The position numbers and the translations under genes were made by a program. The notes under the pieces are model-generated. The model was not told the origin of the DNA and did not search any database. It saw only the letters and a program-made list of their open reading frames with translations. This document shows, one piece after another, positions 9,193 through 29,548 of a stretch of 35,704 nt of DNA (within the stretch, counting starts at the first letter, position 1; the number at the start of each line of letters is the position of its first letter). Source of the DNA: Blastocatellia bacterium. GTDB taxonomy: Bacteria; Acidobacteriota; Blastocatellia; HR10; J050. The stretch lies in the NCBI GenBank assembly GCA_025054955.1, contig JANWZE010000064.1:1-35704 (forward strand). The letters run 5' to 3'.

Positions 9193-10115
9193 AACAGACC
9201 GAGCCGTTTCAAATCTTCGATGGGTTCAGACACCGAACATGAACCAAATGAGATGCAAAATCCTTCTCGCGCGGCGACGAGTTGCTCGATGCTGAGTCGC
9301 CACTCGTGCCAGGCGACCCCTTCGTCATCGAATTGAAAAGCGTCAGCCGAGGTTTCGTCCAGCACCTGGGCGGCCTGCTCGTGACTCATGCCATAGCGCA
9401 AGAACGCGCTGGTCAACGCCACGTTGAGGAATCCGTGCATCAGGCCAGACGGACTATCCGGCTCGTATGTCATCCGATGGACCGAACGAATTGGATGATG
9501 GAGTCCGGCCGTGGCTTTGAACGGCACGTTGGCGGCGGCGCAGCCCGCGATGAACCGGACGAGATCACCGGTCGAAGGAATCATCTCAGGGATCAGGCCG
9601 CCGGTGCGCACCTTGGCGCGCGCGCCTGTCCGAGCGATGGCCTCGATCAGTGGCTCAGCAGATGGCGCCAGCGGTATTTCAATATAGGCTGCCACGAACG
9701 GCGGCACGAGTTGCATCGCTCGCTCAACCTCGTCAACCCGGTCAGCTTTTAGCTCCAGCGTATCAATGAACGCGAAGGCGGAATGGCGCTCATTGAATTC
9801 CATGATCGTGGCGATGGCTTCCTGCGCCTGTGCACTGCACAACGCGCTTATCAACCAGCGCGGCTCTTGCTCGCTCTTTGACCAGTGTGCCACCGCTTCG
9901 CGCGCAAACTCATCGAGCCGCGAGACAGGCAGAACGAAGCGACCGAGCATCCAGGCGTGTTCACTGCGCCGATAGGCCGCATACTGCTCAACGGCTGCGT
10001 TCATTTCAAGCTGCGCCGGCGGAAACAAGCCGGCATAATCAATGAACGATCTCATCAGCGCGCGCAGCGAGTTGGCCATGCCGTGCCGCTTCTGGGACTG
10101 GCGATAGTCGTTCAT
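9189..10115 (-). CDS. Unknown protein inside the homogentisate operon, candidate maleylacetoacetate isomerase
   Basis: I chose the ATG at 10115 because it overlaps the hmgA stop (ATGA), giving 308 aa. The open frame extends 11 codons further upstream. The 3' end overlaps fahA in the same way. I do not recognise a named family. The second half has alternating strand-helix blocks that look like a beta/alpha barrel or a similar fold: [41 protein letters not shown], then [18 protein letters not shown] at the end. Possible active-site residues are Lys in AKVRTGG, Lys and HH in [10 protein letters not shown], and Glu in YIEIPL. There is no signal peptide, so it is cytosolic. The pathway needs an isomerase between HmgA and FahA, and no glutathione-S-transferase-like gene is present. 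A glutathione-independent isomerase is an inference from position. An accessory role is also possible. Confidence 0.85.
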
Positions 10116-11410: not shown

Positions 11411-11415
11411 AGGTT

Positions 11416-12504
11416 CTAGAGATTTCCTCGACGCGCTTGTTCGCGCTCAATAGATTCAAATAACGCTTTGAAGTTGCCCTTGCCAAAGCCGCGACACCCC
11501 TTGCGTTGAATGATCTCGTAAAACAACGTGGGGCGATCTTCGACCGGCTGCGTGAAAATTTGCAGCAGGTATCCCTCATCATCGCGGTCCACCAAGAGGC
11601 CTAACTCGCGCACTGCGTCGAGCGGCTCTTCAATCGGGCCGACGCGCGCCGGCAACGCCTCATAGTAGGCATCCGGCACGGTCAGAAATTCGACGCCGTT
11701 CTCACGAAGCGAGCGGACTGTCTCAAGAATGTTCTCCGTGCGCAGCGCGATGTGTTGCACGCCGGGGCCTTGATAGCATTCCAGATATTCTTGAATCTGG
11801 CTCTTGCGTCGGCCTTCAGCCGGCTCGTTAATCGGAAACATGATTGAGTGCGAGTCATCAGACATGACCACGCTCATCAGCGCGCTATACTCGGTTGAGA
11901 TGTCCTTGTCGTCAAACGTAATATAGCGATGGAAGCCAAGCACGCGATGATACCACTCAGCCCATTCGTTCATCCGGCCCTTCTCCACATTGCCCACAAT
12001 ATGATCAATGCGCAGAATGCCCACCGGTCGGCCCGGCGCGTTGGCTTCAACGTAGCCGGGCAGGAATGGCCCATCATAATCGCGATAGGAAATCAACGAA
12101 TGGATCGTATCACCAAAGGTTTGAATCGCGGCGCGTCGAATGGAGCCATGTTGATCGCTCACCGTATGCGGTTCGATGGCCGGCTGAGCGCCGCGGGCGA
12201 GCGCCAGCTCAAAGGCCAGGTCAGCATCGTCCACTTCAAATGCGACATCCCGCACGCCGTCGCCGTGTCGCTTGATGTGTTCGGCTGCCGGATGGTCCGC
12301 GTGCTGTGGGGTCGTGATCACGAAGCGCACAGTTCCTTGCGTGAGCACATAGGATGTTGCGTCGCGTTGTCCAGTCTCCAGGCCGGCATAAGCCACCTGT
12401 GAGAATCCGAAAGCATGACGATAGTAGTATGAGGACTGCTTGGCGTTGCCCGACCAGAATTCAACATGATGAATCCGTCGCAGCTTCAAAGGATTTTCGC
12501 TCAT
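11416..12504 (-). CDS. hppD: 4-hydroxyphenylpyruvate dioxygenase
   Basis: This 362-aa cytosolic Fe(II) enzyme converts 4-hydroxyphenylpyruvate to homogentisate. It contains two vicinal-oxygen-chelate halves. The first starts [24 protein letters not shown] in part, and the second carries the metal site: His168 (RIDHIVGNV), His251 (VQHIALRT) and Glu330 ([10 protein letters not shown]). The C-terminal [18 protein letters not shown] closes the active site in this family. A strong ribosome site (GGAGGT, 10 bases before the ATG) supports the start. It is the first gene of the operon hppD-hmgA-unknown-fahA-(yip1-like). About 300 bases of leader to the tRNA contain a perfect palindrome and two small hairpins. 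Confidence 0.98.
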
Positions 12505-13418: not shown

Positions 13419-15239
13419 TCACGGCTTGCGCGGCAGTGTCAAGCTGGGGCCGGCGCCTTGCTCGATGGTGATGCTCTTGGGTTGGCCGTCGGCCATCTCG
13501 TATTGCACGAAGAAGCCGGCAGGCGCGCCTTCAATCTGAAATCGAGTCGGACCAACTGGCACCAATGTGTAGACCGGCTGCCCCGGCACTGTCGCTTTCA
13601 ACTTGCCGCCGATTACCTCGATGATCACCTCGATGGGCGGCGCAGAGAGCGCAAACACGCCGGCGAATTTCTTCATCTCCGCCTCGCTCATAGCCACAGC
13701 GGCTGCCGGCGGCGCTTTTTCTGCCACTCGTCGAAAAATCATTTCGGAGACTCCAGGCAGGCCGAGTCTGACTTGAGATGCTTCTGCCTGTTCGTTGAGC
13801 GTGAACGAGACCAGCGTTTTCGAGCCGAGCGGATTGCGCCATTTGGCTTGGAACGTGTCATAATGCCAGTGCTCCAGCTCTCCGATGAACGCCGGACTGA
13901 ACTGAGCAAGCAGCTTGCCGTTCTGCTCGGTGATTTTCAGTTGGCCATACACCTCATTCTCATACGTGCCGGCATACTTGGGCAGCGCCAGCGACGGCGT
14001 CGTTCCCATGACCCGCGCTTGCTCGATCTTTTTCTGTGCAGCCTCTTGTTGTTCCTGTAATGCTTTGAAGGCGCTCAGCACCTCGGTGCTCCAATCCCGC
14101 GCCGGCGCGCCCAGGTAGGCATCAAACACTCTGTAGACCAGAGCTGAGTGCAAGTAAGCGCCGCTCAGGTTGATGAGCACGACCACGCCCAACTTCTCTT
14201 CCGGTATCATGGCCACCAACGCGCTCATCCCATCAATAGCGCCGCCGTGCTGAACCACCTTGCGCCCTCGGTAATCATGCAAAAACCAACCCAAGCCATA
14301 GGTCATGAAATGCGCGTCGCGCATGAACAGCAGCCACTGCGGCTCTGGATCAAGGATCATCTGTGGCCGGTGCATCTCTTTGATGGCTCCCGACGAGAGA
14401 AGTCGCCGACCTTGATACATCCCTTCGCCCAGTTGCAGGCGAAGCCACTGGGCCATCTCTACGACATTGGAGTTGATCGAGCCGGCAGGCGCGACGTTAT
14501 CAATGTTGCGCCACGGGATCGGCTGGACTTTGCCGTCAACCTTGGCGTGAGGTGTCGAAACATTGTTGCTCGCGCTCAACGCTGTCACACTGGTGTTGCT
14601 CGCCGACATGCCCAGCGGTGCGAAGATGCGCTCGCGGATGAAATCATCCCAACTCCGACCTGTCACCGCCGCGACAATCTGCCCGGCGGCCAGATACATG
14701 ATGTTTTGATAGCCAAACTTACTGCGGAAACTCCAACTCGGTTTGAGGTAGCGGATGCGGCGCAAAATCTCCTGACGATCATACGCGGAGCCGTACCATA
14801 GCAGGTCAGCGCGTTCAAGCCCGCTGCGATGGCAGACCAGATCGCGCACCGTCAGTTCGCGCGTCACGTATGGATCGAAGAGTTGAAATCCCGGCAAGTG
14901 CTTCGTCGCCGGATCATCCCAGGAGAGTTTGCCTTCATCAACCAGCATCGCCAGCGCCGCTGTGGTGAACGCTTTGGAGGCCGAGCCAATGGCAAACAAC
15001 GTGCGCTCGTCCACCGGCGTCGGCTCACCGAGCTTCCGCACGCCATAGCCTTTGGCCAGCACGATCTTGTCGTCTTTGACGACGGCGACGGCCAATCCTG
15101 GCACTTCCCAATCTCGCATCGCCTTGGTCACATACTCATCAAATCCTCGAAGCGGCGCCTCCTGCGCTGGAGCCACTGAACTGCTCATCAGCACAAGAAG
15201 CAGCAAAACAGTGAGTCGAATCATTGGTCGTTGTTTCAT
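13419..15239 (-). CDS. Secreted beta-lactamase-like serine hydrolase with C-terminal DUF3471-like domain
   Basis: This 606-aa protein has a signal peptide (about 1-26, ..SSVAPAQ). The class C beta-lactamase/D-Ala-D-Ala-peptidase-like domain (about 30-385) shows all three motifs: Ser86-x-x-Lys89 (GSASKAF), Tyr177-x-Asn179 (GYQNI) and His331-Gly-Gly (VQHGGAIDG). The region from about 420 (YAGTYENEVYGQLKITEQNGKL) resembles DUF3471, a beta-domain often attached to these esterase or peptidase enzymes. A role in cleaving peptides or esters outside the cytoplasm is inferred. Antibiotic resistance is not implied. It starts 10 bases after the stop of the tricorn-like protease gene, so the two form one operon and may act on the same peptide pool. 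Confidence 0.88.
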   Translation of the reverse strand: MKQRPMIRLTVLLLLVLMSSSVAPAQEAPLRGFDEYVTKAMRDWEVPGLAVAVVKDDKIVLAKGYGVRKLGEPTPVDERTLFAIGSASKAFTTAALAMLVDEGKLSWDDPATKHLPGFQLFDPYVTRELTVRDLVCHRSGLERADLLWYGSAYDRQEILRRIRYLKPSWSFRSKFGYQNIMYLAAGQIVAAVTGRSWDDFIRERIFAPLGMSASNTSVTALSASNNVSTPHAKVDGKVQPIPWRNIDNVAPAGSINSNVVEMAQWLRLQLGEGMYQGRRLLSSGAIKEMHRPQMILDPEPQWLLFMRDAHFMTYGLGWFLHDYRGRKVVQHGGAIDGMSALVAMIPEEKLGVVVLINLSGAYLHSALVYRVFDAYLGAPARDWSTEVLSAFKALQEQQEAAQKKIEQARVMGTTPSLALPKYAGTYENEVYGQLKITEQNGKLLAQFSPAFIGELEHWHYDTFQAKWRNPLGSKTLVSFTLNEQAEASQVRLGLPGVSEMIFRRVAEKAPPAAAVAMSEAEMKKFAGVFALSAPPIEVIIEVIGGKLKATVPGQPVYTLVPVGPTRFQIEGAPAGFFVQYEMADGQPKSITIEQGAGPSLTLPRKP

Positions 15240-15249
15240 AGTTGATCGC

Positions 15250-18200
15250 TTATCGCTCCTTTCTCGCGGTGTGGTAATTCGGATAGGCTGGCTTCTTGGG
15301 CTTCGGCAGAGGATTCTTCCTGAGCATCTCCATCACCGTTTCCACCGCTTTCTCCAGTTGCGGGTCGCGACCGGCGCGCCACGCCGCCGGATCAAATTCA
15401 ACTTCAATGTCCGGCGCGACGCCTCGATTTTCGACGTCCCACTGACCGTCGGGGCTGTAGAACGCCACGCGCGGCGCTGTGACCTGGCCGCCGTCTATCA
15501 GCGGCGGATAGTCGTAAATGCCGACCAGCCCGCCCCACGTTCGTTTGCCGATCAACGGGCCGATGCCCGCCCGTCGGAACATCCACGGCATCAGGTCGCC
15601 CCCACTGCCGGCATATTCGTTAATGATCATTGCCTTTGGTCCAAAGATGGAGCCAACAGGCGTGGTGAAATCTTCGCCTTCGCGCGTCGTCCAGTAATTC
15701 ATCAACGGTCGCCGCAGGTAATCAATGATGTAATCGGCGGCCGTGCCGCCCCCGTTGAATCGTTCGTCAATGATGGCTCCTTCTTTGTGAATCTGCGAGA
15801 AGTAGTAGCGATTGAAATTGGTGTAACCACCCACAGCCGTATCCGGCAAGTAAACGTAGGCCAGCCGGCCTCCGCTCAGTTGATCCACTTTGCGCCGATT
15901 GTCTTCGATCCACGCCATGTTGCGCAACCCGGCCTCGCTGGCCACCGGCACGACGGTCACATCGCGTGCATTGGCGCCGCCGGGGTCAGGCCCAACTCGA
16001 ATGACAACCTGCTTATCAGCCGTCCCTTCAAAGAAACTGTAGATGTTGTCCGACGCGCGCAGTTCACGCCCGTTCACAGCCAAAAGATACTCGCCAGCCT
16101 GAACGTTGACGCCCGGCTGCGTGAGCGGCGCGCGCAGTTGTGGATTCCAGTTCTCGCCGTTGTAGACGCGAGCAAAGCGGTAGCGCCCGTTCTCGATTTT
16201 ATAATCAGCCCCTAGCAAGCCGCCGCGCACCGACGGCACCGGCGGCAGATCACCGCCGGCAACAAACAAATGTCCCAGCGACAGCTCGCCCAGCATCTCG
16301 ACGAACAAGTAGTTCAGATCAGCCCGATGAGCAATTCCGTCCACGTATGGCCGGTACTTCTGCTCGGCGGCTCTGAGGTCTAGTCCGTGCCAGCCGGGAT
16401 CGTAGACGAAATCGCGCTGAATCCGCCACACTTCACGATACATCTGGTTCCATTCGGCGCGCGGATCAACGCGGATTTCAACCTCGTCCAGTTTGAGCGC
16501 GCCTTCGCCCGGCTTGACCGGCTGCCCTGTGGCGGCGATGACCCATCGCTCGCCCTGCCGATAGAGCATCTTCTCGCCATTGGCTGACAGCTCAAAGGTC
16601 GAAATGCCTTCCAGCATTTTATCCAGCTTGCGTTTCTCCAGCTCAAATTTATGCAGCGTCACCGGCGTCGGACCGAGCAGCGCCGTTATTCCCAGCTCGG
16701 CTTCCAGCAAATAGATTGTCCCGGCTTTTCCGGCGATCATCCCTGTGTAATTCCGCGCCGGGATCGGCAGCGCCAGGATGCGCTGACTGATGTTTTCCAG
16801 GTCAATCGTCACCTTGTCAGGCTCCTTCTTCTCCGCTGGCTTATCAGCGCTGGCAGCCGCGTTCGCAGACCTTTGACCTTCTGACGGCTGTTTCTCTTCA
16901 TCGCTTTCGGGCGCAAGCGGCGACGGCAGGTCTTTCCGCAAAACCACAATGTACGCGCTGCGCGTGACACGGCGATTGAAGCTGGACATGTCAAGCCAGC
17001 CGGTTGTCGGACCGACGTCGGTGCTGGTCGTGAAATAGATGTACTTGCCACTCTTGTCAAACGAGGCGAATCGGGCGTCGCTCATCCCGTCGGTAATCTG
17101 ATAGCTTTTTGCTTCCTCCACTGAATAGACAAACACCGTGCCCAACCGATTCTTCAATTGCTTGGTATAGACGATCCAGCGGCTGTCGGGCGACCAGGCT
17201 GGATCAAACATCCGCCAAGGGTTCTCGTATGTGTTCGTGTCCACTTTGACCGGCGTGCCCTTGTCCAAATCAACGTACCACAGGTTGAGTCGCTTGTCGG
17301 TATAAGCGATCTTCTTGCTGTCAGGCGACCACGTCGGCGAATAGAAGAATGAAGGTGGGTTGCCGAGATTGATTTTTCGCGTTTCGCCCATGCCGCTTTG
17401 ATCGCGCACATGCAACTGATACTCGCCCGATTCATCGGAGAAGTAAGCGATCCATTTACCGTCAGGCGACCACGCAGGATCACGCTCGGCCACGCCGGGC
17501 GTGTTGGTCAGATTGCGCGCGTTTCCCTTCTCGGCGGGCACGGTCACGATCTCGCCACGCGCCTCGAACACGGCGCGCGCGCCGGTGGGCGAGAGTCCAG
17601 CAGAAACGATCCGGTTGGTGAGCTTCTCGAAGCGCGGTCGCACGCTGAGCACATCGCCGGCCACCTGGATATTGAGTCTCTTGGTTTGTCCACTGCTCAG
17701 ATCGAACAGATGCAGCGAACCGAATTGTTCATAGATGATGGCTCCCGGACCGGCGGACGCCGATTTAATGTCCAGCCCATCGTTGCGAATGACCTGTGTG
17801 ACTCTCTTTGTGGCTGTGTCATAGGCAAACAACGTCACCGGCCCATTGCGGTCTGAGAGGAAGTAAATTCGATTGCCGATCCACATCGGGTTGAAGTCGT
17901 TGGAATTCTCGCGCGGGATCTTCTCGATGGTTGAGTCGGCTAATTTGGCAATCCAGATGGGCGTGGTCATGCCACCACGATAGCGTTTCCACGCTTGGAA
18001 GAATTGTCCCTCACCGGGAAACGGCTCACGCGCAATCGGCAGATAGGCGAGCCGCGAGCCATCGGGCGAATACGCGCCTTCTTCAGCCATCGGCAGCGGC
18101 AGCTCGGTCGGGAATCCGCCCTCCAACGGCATGGTGAACAAACGACTGAAACGCGGCGAGTGACTATTGCGATTTGATCGGAAGAGCACCTGCTTTCCAT

Positions 18201-18555
18201 CAGGCGTCCAGCCGACCACCACATCCGCTTCCGGATGATAGGTCAACCGACGAGGAACGCCGCCCGTGGCCGGAACTATGTACACATCCACGTTGCCTTC
18301 ATACTCTCCGGTGAAAGCGATCATTTGGCCATCGGGAGAGAAGTGCGGCCGGGTCTCCAGGCCGGCACCGGTCGTCAACCGTTGGGCCTGCCCGCCGTCT
18401 CGTCCGACAATCCACAAATCGCCGGCAAAGGCAAAGACAATATGTGTCCGACTCAGCGTCGGCTGTTGCAGCAACAACGGCTTTTCTGCCTGCCCAAAGC
18501 CAACGCCGATGACTATCAGCACGAGGCAAATCGTCAACACGCTTGGTCTGATCAT
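15250..18555 (-). CDS. Tricorn-type S41 protease with WD40-like propeller
   Basis: I use the ATG at 18555 because GGAGA lies 5 bases upstream. An in-frame ATG at 18573 would add 6 residues and lacks such a site. The 1101-aa product has a signal peptide (MIRPSVLTICLVLIVIGVGFGQA). WD40-like PD40 repeats follow, with recurring WSPDGKWIAY, FSPDGQMIAF and WSPDSKKIAY. A low-complexity stretch (SEGQRSANAAASADKPAEKKEPDK) comes next. The C1 domain, a PDZ-like region and the S41 catalytic core end the protein, with SLGHLFVAGGD, VYLPDTAVGG, DERFNGGG, NEYAGSGGD (probable catalytic Ser near residue 984) and VENRGVAPDIEVE. Tricorn-like proteases degrade oligopeptides. The signal peptide places this one outside the cytoplasm. 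It leads the operon with the serine hydrolase. Confidence 0.9.
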   Translation of the reverse strand: MIRPSVLTICLVLIVIGVGFGQAEKPLLLQQPTLSRTHIVFAFAGDLWIVGRDGGQAQRLTTGAGLETRPHFSPDGQMIAFTGEYEGNVDVYIVPATGGVPRRLTYHPEADVVVGWTPDGKQVLFRSNRNSHSPRFSRLFTMPLEGGFPTELPLPMAEEGAYSPDGSRLAYLPIAREPFPGEGQFFQAWKRYRGGMTTPIWIAKLADSTIEKIPRENSNDFNPMWIGNRIYFLSDRNGPVTLFAYDTATKRVTQVIRNDGLDIKSASAGPGAIIYEQFGSLHLFDLSSGQTKRLNIQVAGDVLSVRPRFEKLTNRIVSAGLSPTGARAVFEARGEIVTVPAEKGNARNLTNTPGVAERDPAWSPDGKWIAYFSDESGEYQLHVRDQSGMGETRKINLGNPPSFFYSPTWSPDSKKIAYTDKRLNLWYVDLDKGTPVKVDTNTYENPWRMFDPAWSPDSRWIVYTKQLKNRLGTVFVYSVEEAKSYQITDGMSDARFASFDKSGKYIYFTTSTDVGPTTGWLDMSSFNRRVTRSAYIVVLRKDLPSPLAPESDEEKQPSEGQRSANAAASADKPAEKKEPDKVTIDLENISQRILALPIPARNYTGMIAGKAGTIYLLEAELGITALLGPTPVTLHKFELEKRKLDKMLEGISTFELSANGEKMLYRQGERWVIAATGQPVKPGEGALKLDEVEIRVDPRAEWNQMYREVWRIQRDFVYDPGWHGLDLRAAEQKYRPYVDGIAHRADLNYLFVEMLGELSLGHLFVAGGDLPPVPSVRGGLLGADYKIENGRYRFARVYNGENWNPQLRAPLTQPGVNVQAGEYLLAVNGRELRASDNIYSFFEGTADKQVVIRVGPDPGGANARDVTVVPVASEAGLRNMAWIEDNRRKVDQLSGGRLAYVYLPDTAVGGYTNFNRYYFSQIHKEGAIIDERFNGGGTAADYIIDYLRRPLMNYWTTREGEDFTTPVGSIFGPKAMIINEYAGSGGDLMPWMFRRAGIGPLIGKRTWGGLVGIYDYPPLIDGGQVTAPRVAFYSPDGQWDVENRGVAPDIEVEFDPAAWRAGRDPQLEKAVETVMEMLRKNPLPKPKKPAYPNYHTARKER

Positions 18556-18586
18556 TTCCGTCTCCTCTCTCATGATTCAATGTAGG

Positions 18587-18825: not shown

Positions 18826-21800
18826 CTACCACTCGACACGGAAGCCGAACTGAATAGCCCGTGGTTCATTAAATTGATCGCTGAGGACGCCGAAGGCCGT
18901 CGGATTGAGCAAGCTCAATGTCGGGTCGGCGAACTCGACTCGATTGAAGATGTTCAAAAAGTCGAATGAAAAGACAGTCCGAACGTTCTCGGTGATGTTG
19001 GTCTTTTTACCGAGTGAGAAATCCAGGTTCCATCGCGGCAAGCCCCGCAGCACGCCACGAGCCTGGCGTCCGTCTTCGCTGATGCGGATTCGACGGAAGC
19101 TGTTGAACGCGGCTTCGGGGTTGGCAAACAGGTTCAGACCGGAGCCACCTCGCGCCGGATCGCTCGCTGTGCCGATACCATTGGAACCAGCGACGCCTGA
19201 TTGCACTTCGTTGGGGAAGTCAGGCTTGCGCAGCGGGATGGCTCCGGCCGCCGGTGAGAAGTTCAACGGGTCACCGCCCCAGACCTGATTGCTTTGCCCG
19301 ACCGTCAGCGGCAAACCACTATTGGCCGTGTAAACCCCTGAAACGTACCAGCCGCCGACGAGCTTATCCAGCGCCGCCCCTGTGTTCCAGTAGCGACCAC
19401 GACCGAATGGTAGGTCGTACAACCAAAGCGCGTTGAAAACATGACGCCGGTCAAAGTAGCTTGGCCCGTAGTCAATGTCCGGATCATAGGCTGAAGAGTA
19501 GGTCTGAATGAAGTTTTGGGTGACCCCAATCTGATCGAGTGCCTTCGACAGTGTGTAGTTCAGATCGAAGCTCAACCCTTGTGAGAACCGCTTGCGCAAC
19601 GTAACGAAGAACGAATGATAGTTAGAGCGACCGCCATCAGTGCGCATCCAGATGTCCAGGACTTGCAGGTTGGTTATCGGCGGTCGGCCAGCAGTCAACC
19701 GCGAGATTTGAATCGAAGTCCACAGGTCGTTGAGCAACCCATCGCGGAAAGCAGCCGTCTGCGACGTAGCGAGGTTCACCGTGCCGCCTGTGCCCAGTTG
19801 ATTTTCAAACCAGGGCTGCGGCGTCACTGCGCTGGGCGCCACGCCGGCACGAAGTTGCCCGGCTACGGCATCAAATGCCTGCGCTAAGGTCTGGCCTGAT
19901 GCCGCATCTTTCATGAAGAACGGCACTGCGCTGATCTGCACGTTCTGGTTCAGATTGCGCCCCAGCCGACCAGCATACCCAAGCTCCACCAGCAAGTCGC
20001 CCGGCAGCTCTCGCTGGATAGTGAAGTCAAAGCTGTGGGAACGACCCACGGTGATGTCCGGGTCTACCTGGAAAGAGAGTAGTTCGCCAAACACCGGTGA
20101 GGGCACAACCGGCGCGGTGACTGCCGGAAATGGAGGGATGGGAGCCGGACCGTCCACACCGATGCGGAAGGCATTAGCAGGCTCGTTGGCGTTGGCGCAC
20201 TGACCGCCGATGCGTGGCCCGCGGCAGTTAATCGTCTGCGCAAAGCCCACACCCAGAAGCGGAATGATGACCGTTTGGACCGTGTTCAACCGATCGAAGA
20301 GAATTGAGTAGCCGCCTCGCAAGACCGTCTTGCGATCGCCAAACAACCGACCCCACAGGCCGCTGTCAAATGAGGGATTCCAAGCGACGGCTGCGCGCGG
20401 GCCGATGTTCTTCCAATCAATGTCGAAGATGCGGCTACGACTGGAATTGGCAATCGGCTGGTAGGCCAGTTCTGGATTGAAGATGTTGCCTGCTTCAGCC
20501 GCTCGTCGCCGCGCGGCCAAGTATCCTGCCGAGGTGATGATTTCACCGCTGGCTCGATCAATGAGGAACGTCTGCCGGTCTTCTTTCTCCTTGGGCGGTG
20601 TCTGCCACTGATAGGTCACCCCGTAGGTCAACGTCAGCGATGGACGCGCGCGCCAGATGCTGCTGAAGTAGAACTCAAAGGCTTGGACGCTGGCGTCCAC
20701 TTCTAGCGGCGTGCCCAGCGGCTTTGGCTTCAGTTGACCGTCACGCACGGCCATGATGCTCACGTTATCAATGATCCCGAGCATGCCTGCATAGAGCCGA
20801 TTCCAGCGCGTCACGTCGCCGGCCTGCAGGCAGTTGGTTGTGAGCGTGCCTGTGCAACTGGGCGGACGATTGGTCGCCGGAATCGTGACGGCAGGTCCAT
20901 CGTCTAACTCTGCGACCAGTGAGGCGAGCGAGCCAACGACTTTGTCATCGCGCAAATGATAAAGGTCCAGATAGCGCCAACTGCCGCCAAACTGGAACGT
21001 GTGACGACCCTTGACCCACGTGGCATTATCAACAAGCTGCGTCACGCGATCATTGACGCCCTGCGTGCGGGCCAGTTGCGCGTGGATGTCAATCGGCTCT
21101 GATACAAGTCCACCGAAGCTCGGATGGCCAGCCACCTGCAAGGCCACGTTCGTGCCCGGTACCTGCGGGAAGGGCGAAGCCCGCTGCAACCACCAGAAAT
21201 TGCGCTGCCAGGAGAAGCGCAATTCGTTCGTCAGCAGCGGCGTCAGTTGTCCTGTCAGGCCAGCCACCATGAAGCGTGGCTGCACCGGAACTTTGGCCAG
21301 CGATGCCGGCTGCCCGAGCGTGTTGCCTTGAAGCAGGCCGCCAATATCCAGTTGCGTCGTGGAATTCGACGTCTGGCGGCTATAGCGAAAGCTGCCGTCA
21401 AACCGCCACCTGTCGGTGAAGTTGTGATCGAGCCGCACGACCGCGAAGTCGTTGTTGACGGAGGCATCGGCTGTGGATCGAAAACCGATGGTGTTCAGTC
21501 CGTCGCCAAGCGTGGGATCATTGCCCGCCGGCAGCTTGTTCCACAACTCTCGCACCACTGGATTCAAACCGACGCGACGCGGATCGCACAGATCAGAATT
21601 GGTCGGGCCGCACAATGTCGAATTAGCCAGATTGTAACTGACGACATTGCCGCTGGCATCGCGGAAACGCAAGATGCCCGCCCGCAGCGAATCAGTGGGT
21701 ACAATGCGGTTGATGTCCACCGCCCGCGGAAATCGCCGACCTTCATAATGGCCAAAAATGAACGTCCGATCCTTCCACAACGGACCGCTGCCGGAAAATC

Positions 21801-22710
21801 CAAAGCGATTGTCTTTCAAATCTGGTTCAGGAACATTTGGGCGACCCGTGACGGGATTGCGCCCGGCTCGGTTGCGCGTCCAGGTATTGGCGTTCAAGTT
21901 GTCATTCTGATGGTACCAATAGGCCGAGCCGTGAAATGCATTTGTGCCCCGCTTGGTCACAAACGTGATCTGGCCGCCTGACGAGCGCCCGAACGTCGCG
22001 TTCGGGTTGGTCGTGCCGACGCGGAATTCCTCCACACTTTCGACCGGCACGGGGATGATCGGCTCCGGACCGCCGCCCAGCGGCCTAGCAGGGTGAGTCC
22101 CGACTGTGTTATCGGTGGCGTCAGCGCCATCGAGCGAAAACGTATTCTGATCGCTACGCGCCCCGGCGACCTGGCCGCCCACATTATCATTCACCCCGAC
22201 ACCGCGAAACGGCATCGTCAACGGCTGGAGAAGATAAACACTGACGGCGCTGCGATTGGGATTAGGCAGCCGCAGCAGCCGCTCGCCCTCAATGACATTA
22301 CCGACGGTGGCATCCACTCGTTGCAATTCAACGCCTGCGCCGGCTGTCAATTCCACCACTTCGGTGACGGCACCCGGCTCAAGCGTAAAGTTCACGGTGT
22401 AGGCTTTGGCCACATCCACTTTCAGCGATGGAACGACGCCTTGCCGAAAGCCGGCCATGCTCACCGTGATTTTGTAGACGCCTGGAACCACATTGACAAA
22501 CGTGTATTGGCCCGCCGCGTTCGTCTCCACGCTGCGGACAGCGTTGGTTGATGTGTCAAGCAACTCAACCTTCGCACCGACCACGACAGCGTCAGCCGGG
22601 TCTGTGATGACGCCTGTGACCGTCGCGGTCGCCGCCGTCTGGGCCGCAACCGTGGGCGCCAGCGCCAAGACGAGGCCTACACAGAAGAAAGCCAGAGTTA
22701 GACGATTCAT
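18826..22710 (-). CDS. Second Oar-like TonB-dependent receptor
   Basis: The ATG at 22710 is preferred because GGAGGTGA lies 5 bases upstream and a clean signal peptide follows (MNRLTLAFFCVGLVLALAPTVAAQ). The open frame itself runs 22 codons further upstream. The 1294-aa protein has a carboxypeptidase-regulatory-like domain (about 27-110; VTGVITDPADAVVVGAKVEL), a plug domain (LLRLPNPNRSAVSVYLLQP, FSLDGADATDNTV, NATFGRSSGGQITFVTKRG) and a very long barrel ending in AIQFGFRVEW with a terminal aromatic residue. It is about 260 residues longer than the first receptor, mainly in barrel loops. Transport substrate is unknown. It is divergent from an RpiR/SIS regulator, which may control it and hint at a sugar-derived signal. 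Confidence 0.9.
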   Translation of the reverse strand: MNRLTLAFFCVGLVLALAPTVAAQTAATATVTGVITDPADAVVVGAKVELLDTSTNAVRSVETNAAGQYTFVNVVPGVYKITVSMAGFRQGVVPSLKVDVAKAYTVNFTLEPGAVTEVVELTAGAGVELQRVDATVGNVIEGERLLRLPNPNRSAVSVYLLQPLTMPFRGVGVNDNVGGQVAGARSDQNTFSLDGADATDNTVGTHPARPLGGGPEPIIPVPVESVEEFRVGTTNPNATFGRSSGGQITFVTKRGTNAFHGSAYWYHQNDNLNANTWTRNRAGRNPVTGRPNVPEPDLKDNRFGFSGSGPLWKDRTFIFGHYEGRRFPRAVDINRIVPTDSLRAGILRFRDASGNVVSYNLANSTLCGPTNSDLCDPRRVGLNPVVRELWNKLPAGNDPTLGDGLNTIGFRSTADASVNNDFAVVRLDHNFTDRWRFDGSFRYSRQTSNSTTQLDIGGLLQGNTLGQPASLAKVPVQPRFMVAGLTGQLTPLLTNELRFSWQRNFWWLQRASPFPQVPGTNVALQVAGHPSFGGLVSEPIDIHAQLARTQGVNDRVTQLVDNATWVKGRHTFQFGGSWRYLDLYHLRDDKVVGSLASLVAELDDGPAVTIPATNRPPSCTGTLTTNCLQAGDVTRWNRLYAGMLGIIDNVSIMAVRDGQLKPKPLGTPLEVDASVQAFEFYFSSIWRARPSLTLTYGVTYQWQTPPKEKEDRQTFLIDRASGEIITSAGYLAARRRAAEAGNIFNPELAYQPIANSSRSRIFDIDWKNIGPRAAVAWNPSFDSGLWGRLFGDRKTVLRGGYSILFDRLNTVQTVIIPLLGVGFAQTINCRGPRIGGQCANANEPANAFRIGVDGPAPIPPFPAVTAPVVPSPVFGELLSFQVDPDITVGRSHSFDFTIQRELPGDLLVELGYAGRLGRNLNQNVQISAVPFFMKDAASGQTLAQAFDAVAGQLRAGVAPSAVTPQPWFENQLGTGGTVNLATSQTAAFRDGLLNDLWTSIQISRLTAGRPPITNLQVLDIWMRTDGGRSNYHSFFVTLRKRFSQGLSFDLNYTLSKALDQIGVTQNFIQTYSSAYDPDIDYGPSYFDRRHVFNALWLYDLPFGRGRYWNTGAALDKLVGGWYVSGVYTANSGLPLTVGQSNQVWGGDPLNFSPAAGAIPLRKPDFPNEVQSGVAGSNGIGTASDPARGGSGLNLFANPEAAFNSFRRIRISEDGRQARGVLRGLPRWNLDFSLGKKTNITENVRTVFSFDFLNIFNRVEFADPTLSLLNPTAFGVLSDQFNEPRAIQFGFRVEW

Positions 22711-22815
22711 AGCAGTCACCTCCAATGCTGAATTCGGCGTCTTCGCATGACGCGCTGTGTTTGTTTCCCTGGTCATGTTTAACTCGAATCAACCGCTCGT
22801 ATTGAGTTCAGCGTA

Positions 22816-22844
22816 GGTGTACAACAGATGTTGCAAGAAGTCAA
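22816..22844 (-). promoter_or_regulatory. Candidate promoter of the second receptor gene
   Basis: On the - strand TTGACT (22844-22839) and TACACC (22821-22816) are 17 bases apart. Transcription would start near 22809, about 100 bases before the ATG at 22710. The -35 box lies inside the palindrome at 22831-22865, so a protein bound there would block or shape RNA polymerase access. The -10 box is weak. Confidence 0.4.
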
Positions 22845-22865
22845 GTAAATAAACGCTTGTTGCAA
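22831..22865. promoter_or_regulatory. Candidate operator in the receptor/RpiR divergent promoter
   Basis: TTGCAAGAAG (22831-22840) and CTTGTTGCAA (22856-22865) are inverted copies differing at one base, with a 15-base AT-rich centre. A further small palindrome, CAACA-GA-TGTTG, lies at 22822-22833. The site overlaps the likely -35 box of the receptor gene and lies about 63 bases before the likely start of the regulator. That fits autoregulation and control of the receptor by the RpiR protein. Assignment to this regulator is inference from position. Confidence 0.45.
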
Positions 22866-22927
22866 TGGCGCTCTTGAGTTTCTCGCCCATTCTGCCCTAC
22901 AATCGGCCTTCTGCGATGGGGATCTCT

Positions 22928-23878
22928 ATGAAACAGAAGCAGCTCACCAATGGTGAAAACCATTTAGCCGTTCCGCCGACGCCGCTGGAAGCGCGCTTCG
23001 CTCAGGCGCGAGCCCGGCTCTCGCCACGCCGGCAGGAGCTCCTGCGCTCCATTCTGGAGACGCCTGACGAGACATTTTATCTCTCTTCACGCGAGCTGGC
23101 CCAGAAGTATAACGTGGATGCTGCCACCATCGTGCGCGTCATTCAGGCGCTTGGCTATGACCGATTCGCTGAATTCATGGCCGATCTTCGGCAACACTTC
23201 ATGATGCGGATGACCCCCTATACCATCATGCGGACGGCTGCCCAAGAGAAACGAAGTGTGGCCGATCACATCCGGTATAGCTTGGAACGCGACCTGGAGA
23301 ACCTCGATCATCTCAGGCAAAGCCTGAACACAGCGCATGTCGAAGACCTCGCTCGGCGCATTCACCGGTCGCGACGGATCATGGTGGTCGGTGTGGATTT
23401 CGCCGCGTCGCTGGCTTGCTGCCTGGCCTACGGCCTGACGGCGCTGGGGTTCGATGCGGAGGCGCCGGTGGGGAGCACCGGCAATCTTCAATACCGCGTC
23501 CGGCTCCTAACCAAACACGATCTGCTGATCGCCATTAGCTTCCGGCGATGCCTCAGAGTCACCGTAGATGCTGTGCGCCAAGCTCGCGAGCAGGGCGTAC
23601 CGACGGTTGGCATCACCGACCACAGCACGACGCCGCTGGCTCGCTATTGCGATACTTATCTGCTGGCTTCGATTACAAGCCCGTCATTCACCGGCTCCTA
23701 TGTCGCGCCAATGGGGCTCATCAACGCCATCTTCGTCGCCTGCGCTCATGTCAAACCGAAACGCTCGTTGGCGGCGCTTCGTCCGACTGAACAAGACTAC
23801 CGATCCGGCTCACGCTGGTATTATGAACCTCGTAGTAATGAGACGACGGTGAAGACAAATCAGTCAAAAAGAGAATAA
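22928..23878 (+). CDS. RpiR/MurR-family transcriptional regulator with SIS domain
   Basis: With the ATG at 22928 (weak GGGGAT site just upstream) the product is 316 aa, the usual size. An open frame exists from 22865, but that would run through the candidate operator. The N-terminal helix-turn-helix domain (about 20-95) has the family pattern LSPRRQELLRSILETPDE, YLSSRELAQKYNVDAATIVR and LGYDRFAEFMADL. The SIS sugar-phosphate-binding domain (about 130-285) shows RIMVVGVDFAASLA, LLIAISFRRCLRVTVDA and GVPTVGITDHSTTPLARY. Family members sense phosphorylated sugars or cell-wall sugars and repress or activate nearby genes. Its divergent neighbour is the second Oar-like receptor, the most likely target. 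Confidence 0.88.
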   Translation: MKQKQLTNGENHLAVPPTPLEARFAQARARLSPRRQELLRSILETPDETFYLSSRELAQKYNVDAATIVRVIQALGYDRFAEFMADLRQHFMMRMTPYTIMRTAAQEKRSVADHIRYSLERDLENLDHLRQSLNTAHVEDLARRIHRSRRIMVVGVDFAASLACCLAYGLTALGFDAEAPVGSTGNLQYRVRLLTKHDLLIAISFRRCLRVTVDAVRQAREQGVPTVGITDHSTTPLARYCDTYLLASITSPSFTGSYVAPMGLINAIFVACAHVKPKRSLAALRPTEQDYRSGSRWYYEPRSNETTVKTNQSKRE

Positions 23879-24117: not shown

Positions 24118-24454
24118 TGGACGCCCTGCGATGTATCGCAAGGCGGCAAGCATTACAACATTCGCTCTGAATCGCCGACAGGAGATAAGCGATTCATTCA
24201 AGTGAAAGGGCGGGCGCAATCGGGCGCGAGCATTCTCACTGCTGCTGCAGCCGACAAACTCTGACAATCAGATGACTGCGCCTTTCGTTCCATCGTCACC
24301 GTCGGCAAAGGTGAGCGTCTGCGCCCGTGCATTATCCAGAACGCAATGGCACGCCTGTCACCCCCAAAAGTACTACCGGCAGGTGCAATGTCTAGTTGAT
24401 CAGAAAGATTGGCAGAACGAATGTGAGCAAGTGTACGATATGGCAGAGGATTGA
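24118..24454 (+). pseudogene. Decayed C-terminus of a DUF3883-containing helicase-like protein
   Basis: One frame reads TPCDVSQGGKHYNIRSESPTG in part, then KRFIQVKGRAQSGASILT up to a TGA at 24262. This matches the DUF3883 pattern (YDIRS..G..RFIEVKGRA.SG), a nuclease-like domain at the end of many Snf2-type and other helicases. The similarity resumes after the stop (RLRPCIIQNAMARLSP) and, after a frame change, in YYRQVQCLVDQKDW to a stop at 24454. At least one stop and one frameshift make it a pseudogene. Nothing recognisable of the helicase domains remains in 23879-24117, only a short unassigned frame. It ends 5 bases before the ATPase gene. Confidence 0.6.
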
Positions 24455-24459
24455 TAAGC

Positions 24460-25623
24460 ATGAAGGAATCACGGAAAGCTACGGGGATGCGTTGCACGCA
24501 CATAGAGCTAAAAAACTGGCGTAATTTCACCACCATAGATGTTGCATTGCCGCGTCGAGTGTTCCTGGTCGGTCCGAATGCGTCCGGCAAATCAAATCTC
24601 TTGGATGCCTTTCGCTTCGTTCGAGACCTGGTCTCGGTCGGCGGCGGTTTTCAGGAAGCAGTACGGCGGCGCGGCGGCGTCTCCAGCCTGCGCTCGCTAG
24701 AGGCGCGCAGATATTCGGATATTGTCATCCGAGTTCGGGTTGGTCACGATGAGAATCCTACGGCTTGGGAATATGAACTCACCTTCAATCAGGACAATCT
24801 GAGGCGGGCGGTGATCAAATCAGAGAAAGTGTACAAGCAGGGCCAGAAAGTTCTTGATCGTCCGAACCAGGATGATCGTCGAGACCCAGAACGATTAACG
24901 CAAACATACCTTGAGCAGGTCTATGTCAACCAGGCGTTTCGTGAAGTCGCGGACTTTTTTGCCTCGATTCGGTACCTTCATGTAGTACCCCAATTGATTC
25001 GTGAGCCAGACCGTTCGGTGGGCAGGAGGAACGATCCGTTTGGGGGAGATTTTTTAGAGACATTGGCGCGTACTCCAGAAAAGACTCGGAATGCTCGATT
25101 GCGGCGCATCCGCGAGGCGTTGACTTTTGCCGTGCCGCAACTGCGGGAACTGGAACTCGTGCGCGATGTGCGCGGCACACCCCATTTGCGCGGCAAATAC
25201 GAGCATTGGCGTCCGCAAGGGGCTTGGCAAACGGAGGAACACTTCTCCGATGGAACGCTCCGGTTAATCGGACTGCTCTGGGCGATGATGGAAGGGGCAG
25301 GTCCATTGCTGTTGGAAGAGCCTGAACTCTCCCTCCACCCAGAAGTCGTGCGCTACATTCCCCAGATGTTTGCCCGTGTCGGGCGGCGCTCTGGGCGACA
25401 GGTGATCGTCAGCACGCACTCATCAGAGATGTTGCGCGATGATGGTATTGGCTTGGATGAAGTTCTTCTCCTGCTACCGGGAGACGAGGGGACGGAGGTG
25501 AGACCCGCTGGCTCCTTTGCAGAAATCCGTGTGCTCTTAGAGCAAGGACAGAGCCTGGCGGAGGTTGTCATCCCGCATACCCGCCCCAAAGACGCAGCGC
25601 AGTTGACGCTTTTTGAGGGATAG
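24460..25623 (+). CDS. AAA/ABC-type ATPase of the OLD/RecF-like class
   Basis: This 387-aa protein starts at the ATG at 24460, with GAGG about 10 bases upstream. A TTG at 24451 is a less likely start. It begins THIELKNWRNFTTIDVALPRR, the usual opening of RecF/OLD/SMC-type ATPases. It has Walker A GPNASGKS (residues 38-45), a signature-like SDGTLRLIGLLWAM, Walker B LLLEEPELSLHP (about 283-294) and the switch histidine VSTHSSEML (about 317-325). There is no nuclease domain at its C-terminus. That activity could be supplied by the next gene, which starts 3 bases after this stop. Such ATPase-plus-partner pairs are common in phage defence (OLD, PARIS, Gabija types). Which of these, if any, this pair belongs to is not decided by sequence alone. 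Confidence 0.88.
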   Translation: MKESRKATGMRCTHIELKNWRNFTTIDVALPRRVFLVGPNASGKSNLLDAFRFVRDLVSVGGGFQEAVRRRGGVSSLRSLEARRYSDIVIRVRVGHDENPTAWEYELTFNQDNLRRAVIKSEKVYKQGQKVLDRPNQDDRRDPERLTQTYLEQVYVNQAFREVADFFASIRYLHVVPQLIREPDRSVGRRNDPFGGDFLETLARTPEKTRNARLRRIREALTFAVPQLRELELVRDVRGTPHLRGKYEHWRPQGAWQTEEHFSDGTLRLIGLLWAMMEGAGPLLLEEPELSLHPEVVRYIPQMFARVGRRSGRQVIVSTHSSEMLRDDGIGLDEVLLLLPGDEGTEVRPAGSFAEIRVLLEQGQSLAEVVIPHTRPKDAAQLTLFEG

Positions 25624-25626
25624 GAT

Positions 25627-26301
25627 TTGATCACAACCGCTCGCTCGATAGTTATCTCTGGCGCTGTCGAGGGTCTTGTGGATGAGGCTGTCGTGCGCCG
25701 CCTCATCCGGCACGTCGGCGCTGAGCCAGGTCCGATTTATGGCAAGAACGGTAAAGCCCATCTGCGGCGACAGGTCAACGGATACAATGCAGCGGCGCGT
25801 TGGGCTCCCTGGATTGTTTTGGTGGACCTGAATCACGACGCCGACTGCGCTCCGCTCCTACGGGATGAATGGTTGCCTTCGCCTGCCTCCCAGATGTGCT
25901 TTCGGGTAGCCGTTCGAGTAGTTGAAGCCTGGCTGCTGGCGGACCATCAGCAGATTGCGCGTTTCCTCGGTGTCTCTGCGAAGCAGATTCCCCCGAATCC
26001 AGAAGAGGTGGCGGATCCCAAGGGTCTAATGGTTGAACTGGCCCGACGTTCGCGCCGACGAGACATTCGAGAGGATATGGTCCCCCGGCCAGGCAGCGGT
26101 CGCAGAGTCGGCCCGGCGTATACCGCCCGGCTCATCGAGTTTGTGGAAGATACCAAAACTGGCTGGCGCCCCGATGTCGCCGCCACCTCTGCTAATAGCC
26201 TCAGGCGTTGTATCGAATGTCTGAGGCGGTTAATCAGGAGATTACATGAAGAAGCAACGCACGAAAATCGTCAAGGCATCGCCATCCATTCAGAGGGCTG
26301 A
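25627..26301 (+). CDS. Putative TOPRIM-like partner of the ATPase
   Basis: The frame can only start at TTG 25627, three bases after the ATPase stop, with GAGGGATAGGA just upstream. That gives 224 aa. I recognise no named family with certainty. A TOPRIM/DUF4276-like layout is suggested by an early acidic motif (SGAVEGLVDEAVVRRL, Glu15), a hydrophobic strand with clustered aspartates (WIVLVDLNHDADC, Asp67, Asp71, Asp73) and VEAWLLAD. Further conserved-looking blocks are YGKNGKAHLRRQ, DPKGLMVELARRSRRR and VGPAYTARLIEF. The last 18 codons overlap the start of the DUF1016 pseudogene, so the original stop may have been lost. Function as nuclease or effector activated by the ATPase is inference. Confidence 0.75.
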   Translation: MITTARSIVISGAVEGLVDEAVVRRLIRHVGAEPGPIYGKNGKAHLRRQVNGYNAAARWAPWIVLVDLNHDADCAPLLRDEWLPSPASQMCFRVAVRVVEAWLLADHQQIARFLGVSAKQIPPNPEEVADPKGLMVELARRSRRRDIREDMVPRPGSGRRVGPAYTARLIEFVEDTKTGWRPDVAATSANSLRRCIECLRRLIRRLHEEATHENRQGIAIHSEG

Positions 26302-27671: not shown

Positions 27672-28256
27672 ATGAATCGCTTGATTCTGTTCAATAAGCC
27701 TTATCGCGTGCTGTGTCAGTTCACCGATACGCGTGGCCGGCTGACGCTGGCCCACTTCATTCCTATCCCCGACGTCTATCCAGCCGGACGGCTCGATTAC
27801 GACAGTGAAGGATTGGTCGTCCTGACAAATGCTGGCATCATTCAACACCTGATTACTGATCCTCAACACAAACTACCAAAAACCTACTGGGCCCAGGTCG
27901 AAGGAACACCGACCGAGGCGGCGCTGGCACAACTACGCCGCGGCGTGCGATTGTCAGACGGCTGGACGCGACCGGCTCAGGTTGAACGGATCGAGCCGCC
28001 CGCGCTCTGGCCGCGCGTGCCGCCCATTCGCTACCGCAAGCGTATCCCTACAAGTTGGATGGCACTCACTATCACCGAAGGACGTAATCGCCAGATACGA
28101 CGCATGACAGCAGCCGTTGGTTACCCCACGTTGCGCTTAATTCGCATCGCTATCGGGCCATGGCAACTGGCCGGATTGCAGCCAGGGCAGTGGCAAGAAG
28201 TACGCTGTCCACACAATCAAGCAGAACTGTTGCGGCTGCTTCGAGCACAAACATGA
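27672..28256 (+). CDS. rluE: 23S rRNA pseudouridine synthase E-type
   Basis: This 194-aa enzyme of the RsuA/RluB/E/F family isomerises a uridine in 23S rRNA, U2457 in E. coli RluE. The catalytic motif is [15 protein letters not shown] with Asp42. The start [16 protein letters not shown], the block [10 protein letters not shown], and [23 protein letters not shown] with [14 protein letters not shown] are typical of RluE. There is no N-terminal S4 domain, which also fits RluE and distinguishes it from RluB and RluF. No clear ribosome site precedes the ATG. Its stop overlaps the ATG of the next gene (ATGA). Confidence 0.92.
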
Positions 28257-29548
28257 ACGCACTCCGCGAAAACATAAACGCACTCACCATGGACACGAGC
28301 GCACTCGGCAAAGAGACGAGCACACTCAGCACACACACAAACGCACTCGGCAAAGGCACGAGTGCACTCAGCAAAAACATGAGCGCACTCGGCAAAGGCA
28401 CGAGTGCACTCAGCAAAAACATGAGTGCACTCGGCACAAACACGAGCACACTCAGCACAGACACAAACGCACTCAGCAAAGGCACAAGCACACTCAGCAC
28501 AGACACGAGCGCGGTCAATGTCAAAAATGAACCCTCCTCGAAGACAATCCCGCCGCGATTGCTCCAACTCGTCAAACGGCAACGCATGAGCGAGCGCACG
28601 TTTGAACAAATGCTCCGCCTGTTGTCCGACCGACGGCACGGTGTAGTGGCGCACGATGAGCAACTTGGCTTCTATGCTGAGTCTTTGGCCGAGAGCTGGC
28701 TCACATCGAGCGAATCGCAAGTGCCTGATTGCCTGACCTGCGGCGCGTGTTGCGCCTATTTGCATCAAGTGCCGGTTTTAATTTCCGACCCGACGCCGCG
28801 CCGGCTCACGTGGCAGGTCTGGGATGCCAACGACCGCGCCGGAGCAAAATCGTATTGGCTGCGCCGTGACCCGCACGATGGACAGTGCATCGCGCTGGAT
28901 GGGCAAGTCGGTGAGCGCGTCCGCTGCACGATCTACCCATTGCGACCGCAATCATGCCGAGCATTTGAGGCAGGCAGCGACCGGTGTCATGCGGTTCGAC
29001 GCATGTACGGCTTAGAGCCACCGTTGTCCGAAACTGAGCAGCAACAACTAGCGCGGGTCGGCGCAGACCACGCTTTCGATCAGCAAGCTGAAGCTCTCCA
29101 ACAGCTCGAACGCGCTGGATTCGCCCACCAAGCCGACACTCTCACTGTTCTCTGCGAGCTCATCCAATACAATCAGGCGAAAGTGACTGACATTGTGAAT
29201 GAATTGGGACGGCTGGCCGAGACGCTCACGGCAGCCGGTTGCCCGCAGGAATCGGCCAGATGCTCGCGTGCGCAGCAGCGCCTGCTCAGAGACACAGAAC
29301 AACTGGCTAAGGCTGCCGGGCATTTGCTTCAGGTCAACCTGAACCATAGAGCCAGCGATGAGGACGAGTTAAAGACCCAGCTTTTGGAGGTCGGTCTGGC
29401 CTGGCAGCGGCTGCTGGAGAAAGCAACGAAGAAACTGGCCGAGCGAGCCGAGCGGGCGTTTGTGGCCTTGAATCTGAGCGTTCGTGATGAAGACGCAACG
29501 GCAAGCCGACAAGACACTGAGCGACGTGATGGCGGCTGCCAAGAGTGA
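28253..29548 (+). CDS. YkgJ-type CxxCxxCC protein with N-terminal heptad repeats
   Basis: The ATG at 28253 overlaps the rluE stop (ATGA), which decides the start and gives 431 aa. The frame is open from 28160. Residues 2-88 are about 12 heptapeptides of the form [NS]-[AT]-L-x-x-x-[TMI], with a 3-4 spacing of Leu and Thr/Met/Ile that suggests a weak coiled coil. Residues about 155-250 hold the YkgJ zinc/iron-chelating cluster: Cys160, Cys163, Cys166, Cys167 (CLTCGACC), then Cys212, Cys225 ([11 protein letters not shown]), Cys235 and Cys245. The remainder (about 290-431) is helical and charged. YkgJ-like proteins bind metal but their role is unclear. The repeat fusion is unusual for the family. 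The context suggests coupled expression with a rRNA-modifying enzyme. Confidence 0.8.
28256..28516 (+). repeat. 21-bp coding minisatellite (heptapeptide repeat)
   Basis: About 12.4 copies of a 21-bp unit, usually starting ARCGCACTC or AGYRCACTC and ending ACR, run in frame at the start of the YkgJ-type gene. One 42-bp pair is near-identical ([14 protein letters not shown] twice), which points to recent slippage or unequal exchange. Because 21 is a multiple of three, all frames on both strands stay open here. That produces a misleading Cys-rich antisense frame. Confidence 0.9.

Follow-up and report, generated by a model that had tools for sequence, protein, structure and literature searches.

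The promoter region shared by an RpiR-family regulator gene and the divergent gene of an Oar-like outer-membrane receptor is very probably the operator region through which the regulator controls the receptor, as predicted by comparison with related genomes. In the reading that we favor and consider reasonably probable, the intergenic region carries an RpiR operator, and the protein would be a repressor of peptide scavenging, in the relatives probably of D-amino-acid peptides, with an effector other than a phosphosugar. The window, i.e., the whole analyzed stretch of 35,704 nucleotides from a Blastocatellia bacterium, had received a preliminary description which placed the two genes back to back, and both the Pfam matches (HTH_6 and SIS in the regulator) and the gene map bear this out. 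Its proposal that the regulator controls the receptor via the shared promoter is kept in an altered form: a palindrome overlapping the described inverted repeat recurs at the same position and tracks the regulator, but the repeat itself is not the unit. The features of the window referred to below are the following.

13419–15239, minus strand: S12/class C beta-lactamase-family serine hydrolase with DUF3471 (cluster C2, in 22 of 43 stretches)
15250–18573, minus strand: tricorn-like protease with PD40, Tricorn_C1, PDZ_Tricorn, and Peptidase_S41 (Pfam; cluster C5, in 12 of 43 stretches)
18826–22710, minus strand: Oar-like receptor with CarboxypepD_reg and OMP_b-brl_4 (Pfam), start at 22710 after GGAGGTGA
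22816–22821, minus strand: −10-like hexamer of the receptor, TACACC, weak (3/6), at a 17-bp spacer
22820–22835, no strand: predicted operator 1, the 16-bp near-palindrome TACAACAGATGTTGCA (TACAACA-GA-TGTTGCA), complementary at 6/7 arm positions
22831–22865, no strand: previously described inverted repeat, composed of the right half of operator 1 and the right half of operator 2
22839–22844, minus strand: −35-like hexamer of the receptor, TTGACT (from sequence; TTGAC here in 11 of 12 aligned sites)
22849–22864, no strand: degenerate operator 2, with the right half TGTTGCA (22858–22864) alone intact; matrix score 0.89
22874–22903, plus strand: promoter-like site of the regulator, TTGAGT-18-TACAAT (one found, mean of 0.2 in shuffles)
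22928–23878, plus strand: RpiR-family regulator with HTH_6 and SIS (Pfam, above cut-offs), likely start at 22928

An alternative receptor start at 22776 was taken as an over-call.

A Conserved Palindrome Within the Receptor Promoter

Operator 1 fills the spacer between the −35 and −10 hexamers of the receptor promoter (TTGACT-TCTTGCAACATCTGTTG-TACACC). In the relatives, read on the receptor strand, the first palindrome likewise lies between TTGAC and a TATA-like −10 element (e.g., TATAAA or TATATG) at a spacing of about 17 bp, i.e., within the core promoter. The putative operator therefore has the layout of RpiR operator control, a palindrome overlapping the core promoter. A consensus promoter scan did not list the TTGACT/TACACC promoter of the receptor.

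Comparison of the upstream regions of 23 loci (window included) brought up the word TGYTGCA, which in several of them recurs at a distance of 28–31 bp with GTCAA in between. The word pair TGYTGCA-N20-25-TGYTGCA occurs 12 times in the 572 kb of 43 stretches (39 chosen by place, the loci L009, L011, and L041, and the window), and all 12 sites adjoin the start of a regulator, receptor, S12 hydrolase, or racemase gene. Five of them lie inside the first part of an ORF, and those starts were taken as over-called; called gene starts run long here. Alignment of the 12 sites revealed each TGYTGCA word as the right half of a 16-bp palindrome, and the operator consensus is about TRCANCA-NN-TGNTGYA. Operators 1 and 2 of the window are 29 bp apart, start to start; the second copy is better preserved in several relatives at a spacing of 28–31 bp, and two good copies are present in, e.g., L056, L058, L063, and L066.

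The inverted repeat described earlier was found at its given place, with the arms TTGCAAGAAG (22831–22840) and CTTGTTGCAA (22856–22865) complementary at nine of ten positions and 15 nt apart. The arms also flank the −35 hexamer of the receptor as had been claimed, with TTGACT (receptor strand, 22839–22844) lying between and slightly under them. Although present, the near-perfect repeat is not special: the whole window holds 90 inverted repeats of equal quality (arms of 10, at least 9/10 complementary, loop of 3–40), and when the intergenic stretch 22711–22927 (217 bp) was simulated 2000 times with a first-order Markov model, 213 of the simulated stretches held at least one. Upstream of the regulator, TTGCA-N20-35-TGCAA is confined to the window's own loci and, in another form, to the closely related L038 and L039 among 38 loci from relatives (31 distinct). 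The inverted repeat was rejected as a functional unit, being within chance and without conservation in the 38 loci. Its arms are the right halves of two tandem operator units, and the conserved element overlaps it yet is shifted, comprising the palindrome at 22820–22835 and a half-site ending at 22864. Since TTGCAA is its own reverse complement, the letters of the inverted repeat can equally be read as a direct repeat, with TGTTGCAA starting at 22829 and again at 22858. Within the window, TTGCAANAAG with up to one mismatch was found at seven places versus 9.09 expected, and a regulon of such half-sites within the window was rejected; the half-site search that had been recommended along with the repeat would mislead, because TTGCAANAAG covers just half of the operator.

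Matrix Tests and Genomic Distribution of the Site

A symmetrized operator matrix was built from 13 distinct operator 1 sequences of other genomes, with the window excluded. Positions 22820–22835 gave the top match in the window with a score of 18.97, followed by 13.97, and 4 of 300 Markov-simulated windows reached the score of operator 1 anywhere. In held-out loci, the best match was located at a regulon promoter in 23 of 26 cases compared with 3.3 expected by length, which is to be read as a consistency test, since these loci are relatives of the training loci. Here, a match was defined as a position up to 400 bp upstream or up to 60 bp inside the start called for the regulator or for a gene of cluster C1, C2, C3, C4, or C7; the set includes the window, excludes L011, and counts L047 as a match at a low score of 9.5, and the three failures are L049, L064, and L085. 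Column-permuted palindromic matrices reached a mean of 3.8 loci, with 1 of 300 doing as well (24 loci).

Within 162 genomes of the class, the pattern TTGACNNNNTGCARCANNTGYNGTA was found exactly at 16 places in 14 genomes; allowing one mismatch raised this to 24 places and 21 genomes (reversed control: nine places). Thirteen of the 14 exact-site genomes carry the RpiR orthologue compared with 37 of 162 overall (Fisher p of 8e-9, or 3e-8 without the window's genome, with phylogeny ignored), and the exact site without a detected regulator belongs to G061, an assembly that is 88% complete. The receptor behind this exact operator (L157:2417–6103, minus strand) is 65% identical to a receptor near the regulator of G156. 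The strict pattern at one mismatch is absent from 21 of the 37 regulator-positive genomes.

Twenty of the 24 places are at starts of regulon genes. Downstream, a receptor was found at eight, an S12 hydrolase at eight (for one of them through an ORF called too long), a GNAT at one, an amidohydrolase at one, and a short unassigned ORF at two, where the divergent regulator is the sole tie to the regulon; on the opposite side, the regulator is located at eight and the racemase at five. The other four places, each with one mismatch and within an ORF of a genome that lacks the regulator, are chance-like. In the window's family, G021 and G022 carry the operator also in front of an S12 hydrolase gene whose divergent neighbor encodes an antiporter, as well as in front of a GNAT gene, where it occupies the spacer of TTGACA-17-TATACG. 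These two copies are 9 and 27 kb, respectively, away from the regulator in G022, and each is on a contig other than the regulator's in G021. Among the 396 genomes of the phylum draw, four contain a pair with TTGAC; three of these have the regulator, no regulator match was obtained for the fourth (G412), and G360, from another class, showed moderate operator matches only. The looser pair TGCARCAN{20,24}TGCARCA occurs in at least 74 of the 162 class genomes; as its reversed control is also found in many genomes, the counts given here are based on the stricter pattern.

The Sensor Domain of the Regulator

The regulator belongs to the RpiR family according to its scores for PF01418 (36.1 bits, cut-off 28.3) and PF01380 (52 bits, cut-off 25). 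Its structure model (pLDDT 87) is predicted to resemble 3sho best among the matches listed (Z 25.9, rmsd 2.4 over 187), and further modeled similarities concern MurR with MurNAc-6-P (7en7; Z 23.6, rmsd 2.1 over 187) and NanR, both as 4ivn (Z 22.6, rmsd 8.0 over 259) and as the core domain 8tx9 (Z 22.1, rmsd 2.4 over 181). In the NanR of Streptococcus pneumoniae, the phosphate is coordinated by Ser135, Ser179, Ser181, and Thr184 according to the available part of PMC12713135. In the alignment to 8tx9, these residues correspond to A159, S204, R206, and L209 of the window protein; residue numbers were counted by hand and are consistent with Leu180 in the same excerpt of PMC12713135.

Across 40 aligned sequences, the residues at positions 159 and 209 are the same in all, position 206 is occupied by Gly (38 sequences) or Arg (two), S204 is retained in 39, and D157 is invariant. 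With three of four side chains replaced, the protein lacks the combination that would mark a phosphosugar sensor, namely a phosphate loop of the form SxSGxT together with a Ser in the first SIS loop, and the replacement of these side chains suggests that the pocket would take phosphate no longer. The phosphosugar sensing that had been assigned to the regulator was thus not borne out, as A159, G/R206, and L209 stand in for Ser135, Ser181, and Thr184 throughout the 40 sequences. Scores for the NCBIfam models of MurR, HexR, and AlsR were 35.6, 45.2, and 36.6 bits and remained below the cut-offs of 408, 296, and 400, respectively.

The Receptor and Its Surroundings in the Window

The linked receptor matches PF13620 with 68.4 bits and PF25183 with 465.5 bits; an N-terminal carboxypeptidase-regulatory-like domain followed by an outer-membrane barrel is what we take to define Oar-like proteins. 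No TonB plug domain was among its Pfam matches at E 0.001. The protein is a full-length close relative of 3 of 29 compared receptors (77, 56, and 50% identity), and most of the remaining ones share 25–32% identity over 300-odd residues. The idea of one orthologous group of receptors was rejected, close full-length relatives being limited to these 3 of 29. A second Oar-like receptor of the window (431–3538, plus strand) shares 24% identity with the linked one over 1148 residues, and upstream of it there is no operator match among the eight best in the window. The sequence relatives of the window's S12 hydrolase include D-aminopeptidase and AmpH, all below the NCBIfam cut-offs.

Three further features of the window were recorded. 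A tyrosine breakdown cluster (7849–12504, minus strand) is situated just beyond the receptor, protease, and hydrolase genes and comprises a hydroxyphenylpyruvate dioxygenase-like protein, homogentisate dioxygenase, and fumarylacetoacetase, along with a gene without a Pfam match (9189–10148). Downstream of the regulator, a gene pair (24451–26301, plus strand) matches the candidate defense system HEC-01 (HEC-01A with 534.8 bits, HEC-01B with 214.9 bits). A 21-bp tandem repeat of about 12.8 copies (28244–28512, plus strand) in the 5' part of a CxxCxxCC-domain gene encodes a Ser/Thr/Leu-rich repeat.

Neighboring Genes in Relatives

Neighbors were counted as single-linkage clusters in the 43 stretches, with cluster families read from one representative each; contig ends limit the counts, and one contig is present twice (L011 and L084, both counted). 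L009 (Vicinamibacteria) and L041, where the gene caller missed the regulator, were left out of the neighbor order. Oar-like receptors are found near the regulator in 36 of 43 stretches, a recurrence that is no evidence by itself; the evidence lies in the operator position. S12 hydrolases recur in 22 stretches, the racemase in 21, GNAT in 18, the tricorn-like protease in 12, M19 dipeptidase in 11, amidohydrolase in 10, S15/CocE hydrolase in 8, amino-acid permease in 4, aminotransferase in 3, and M55 D-aminopeptidase and M20 hydrolase in 2 each. Peptidases specific for D-residues seldom occur close to the regulator (M55 in the 2 stretches just named, plus one M15 fusion), and M19, M55, M15, and M20 peptidases as well as the permease are present at some operator-unit loci. 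The M15 case, from G161 (L050:9646–12033, minus strand), is an S12 beta-lactamase-like hydrolase fused to a VanX-type M15 D-Ala-D-Ala dipeptidase; this fusion gene adjoins the operator and is divergent from GNAT.

The racemase representative (L058) reached 327.7 bits for TIGR01928 (NSAR/OSBS, cut-off 200.65), and its closest solved relatives are the N-acylamino-acid racemases 2zc8, 2ggg, and 1r0m. The neighboring amidohydrolase falls into PF07969, presumably D-aminoacylase-like. For the GNAT neighbor, the GNAT domain alone was found, and a search of solved structures gave no convincing relative. The presence of racemase or GNAT as such is uninformative, because most class genomes have a copy (135 and 138 of 162, respectively). 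Only the closer GNAT paralogue tracks the regulator: at E 1e-60 and with a query taken from a positive genome, it was found in 34 of the 37 genomes with the regulator and in 16 of the 125 without it. The 12 annotated recurrent clusters (C9, C11, C13, and C16–C22 left out) contain no sugar kinase, sugar isomerase, or glycosidase family. Induction of the receptor by a sugar-derived compound, the second part of the earlier proposal, is consequently unsupported: the annotated operator genes of the relatives encode hydrolase, racemase, GNAT, and amidohydrolase, not sugar enzymes.

In the window's own genome, the full operator pattern was found once, with none outside this region. The relaxed family-type operator (one mismatch) gave four matches versus five in the reversed control, per strand, and TGCARCANNTGYNGYA gave three versus four, with one of the other two inside an ORF. 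A genome-wide regulon was rejected for this genome, given the single full pattern and relaxed matches no more frequent than in the reversed control. The sole racemase and the sole GNAT detected here sit together at C62, where no operator was found, and the closer GNAT paralogue is absent from this genome. As the window links just the receptor, the tricorn-like protease, and the S12 hydrolase, the data for this genome say peptide scavenging; the D-amino-acid part would be carried over from relatives, the nearest two of which have the predicted operator before GNAT.

Proposed Function and Alternative Readings

Given the computed site, its position, its co-occurrence with the regulator, the target genes in relatives, and the loss of phosphate residues, we infer binding, repression, effector, and ligand as follows. 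An RpiR dimer bound at operator 1 would block RNA polymerase at the receptor promoter; the location within the −35/−10 spacer argues for repression by RNA polymerase exclusion. The dimer may be bridged to the second operator copy as a tetramer, which is suggested by the likeness of a second copy about 29 bp away to the arrangements in NanR, with a palindrome plus a proposed half-site, and in RccR, with double sites. An effector derived from the imported compound would then release the repressor; it would probably be a derivative of an amino acid or peptide and arise from the peptides taken up. In relatives, the operator unit would drive receptors, S12 hydrolases, a GNAT, and an amidohydrolase, often with the regulator or the N-acylamino-acid racemase opposite. 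The likely job would be peptide scavenging, in relatives probably of D-amino-acid peptides, with D- turned into L-amino acids. Only tentatively, and at somewhat less than even chances, do we extend this to an RpiR branch of Acidobacteria that would have lost the phosphate pocket, would sense an amino-acid or peptide derivative, and would repress a regulon in which Oar-like receptors import D-amino-acid peptides, probably peptidoglycan debris.

The operator may instead serve general peptide and protein scavenging, the D-amino-acid enzymes of the relatives being incidental, which coincides with the favored reading except for the D-amino-acid part and which we regard as rather unlikely. The window receptor is linked just to the tricorn-like protease and the S12 hydrolase, and S15/CocE hydrolases in 8 of 43 stretches would fit as well; however, the racemase is found in 21 of 43 stretches and adjoins the operator at five places, and the M55 D-aminopeptidase and M15 D-Ala-D-Ala dipeptidase families appear at some loci. 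It is improbable that the RpiR protein senses a phosphosugar, e.g., a cell-wall amino-sugar phosphate as MurR does, and that the receptor imports a sugar-derived compound. Replacements at the positions of Ser135, Ser181, and Thr184 in all 40 aligned sequences, neighbor clusters (the 12 annotated ones) without sugar kinase, isomerase, or glycosidase families, and scores far below the MurR and HexR cut-offs speak against it, even though characterized RpiR members sense phosphosugars (PMC12713135, PMC5489143, as far as their available parts go) and the SIS model is close to MurR 7en7 and NanR 4ivn. Peptidoglycan debris has both amino sugars and D-peptides, so that peptide genes could conceivably respond to a sugar signal from the cell wall.

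We consider it quite improbable that another transcription factor binds the palindrome and that the RpiR gene is a mere neighbor. The operator is assigned to RpiR by sequence comparison, and G061 has an exact site without a detected regulator; yet 13 of 14 exact-site genomes have the regulator versus 37 of 162, it is the divergent neighbor at 8 of 20 places, and the family is known for palindromes of 15–18 bp in the accessible text of PMC12713135 and PMC5489143. A functionless chance palindrome, finally, is very improbable: the inverted repeat as described is within chance, but the overlapping 16-bp unit is conserved in both position and sequence.

Comparison With Known Systems

Escherichia coli MurR is a MurNAc-6-P sensor. 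The SIS fold and the tie to cell-wall material are shared with the system favored here, whereas the window regulator scores 35.6 versus 408 bits for MurR and the neighbors here are peptide and amino-acid genes. In Firmicutes, the N-succinylamino-acid racemase route (racemase, GNAT as D-amino-acid N-succinyltransferase, M20) turns D- into L-amino acids. The loci of the relatives are alike in their NSAR/OSBS racemase, GNAT, and M20 hydrolases, but here the genes, with predicted enzyme activities, stand beside an RpiR operator and outer-membrane receptors; the racemase chemistry is covered by PMC8142540, in its available part.

S. pneumoniae NanR (SpNanR) is an RpiR-family HTH and SIS protein as well. 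According to the same excerpt of PMC12713135, its operator is an 18-bp near-palindrome, and a degenerate half-site has been proposed at a distance of 23 bp downstream, an arrangement much like the operator and half-site of the window. In contrast, it binds ManNAc-6-phosphate via four side chains, of which the window protein keeps the Ser179 position (S204) alone, and it activates sialic-acid genes (PMC12713135). Pseudomonas RccR and HexR belong to the same family, and RccR uses pseudo-palindromes of 15 and 28 bp that are located at core promoters and doubled at aceE; unlike the window's system, they have KDPG as effector, the motif TGTAGT/ACTACA, and targets in central carbon metabolism (PMC5489143, available part). 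In open-licence literature, nothing in titles and abstract openings pointed to this regulon.

The regulator family is a known one, and the regulon and the altered sensor pocket make this case a variant of it. Acidobacteria are rich in Oar-like receptors, few of which, to our knowledge, have an established ligand. If the favored reading is true, these receptors would gain a ligand class, and the RpiR family would gain what is, as far as we know, its first non-phosphosugar effector. An operator tying some Oar-like receptors to peptide and D-amino-acid enzymes would turn the ligand question into a short compound list, and an SIS regulator lacking the residues that bind phosphate would probe the extent to which this sensor fold can switch its ligand.
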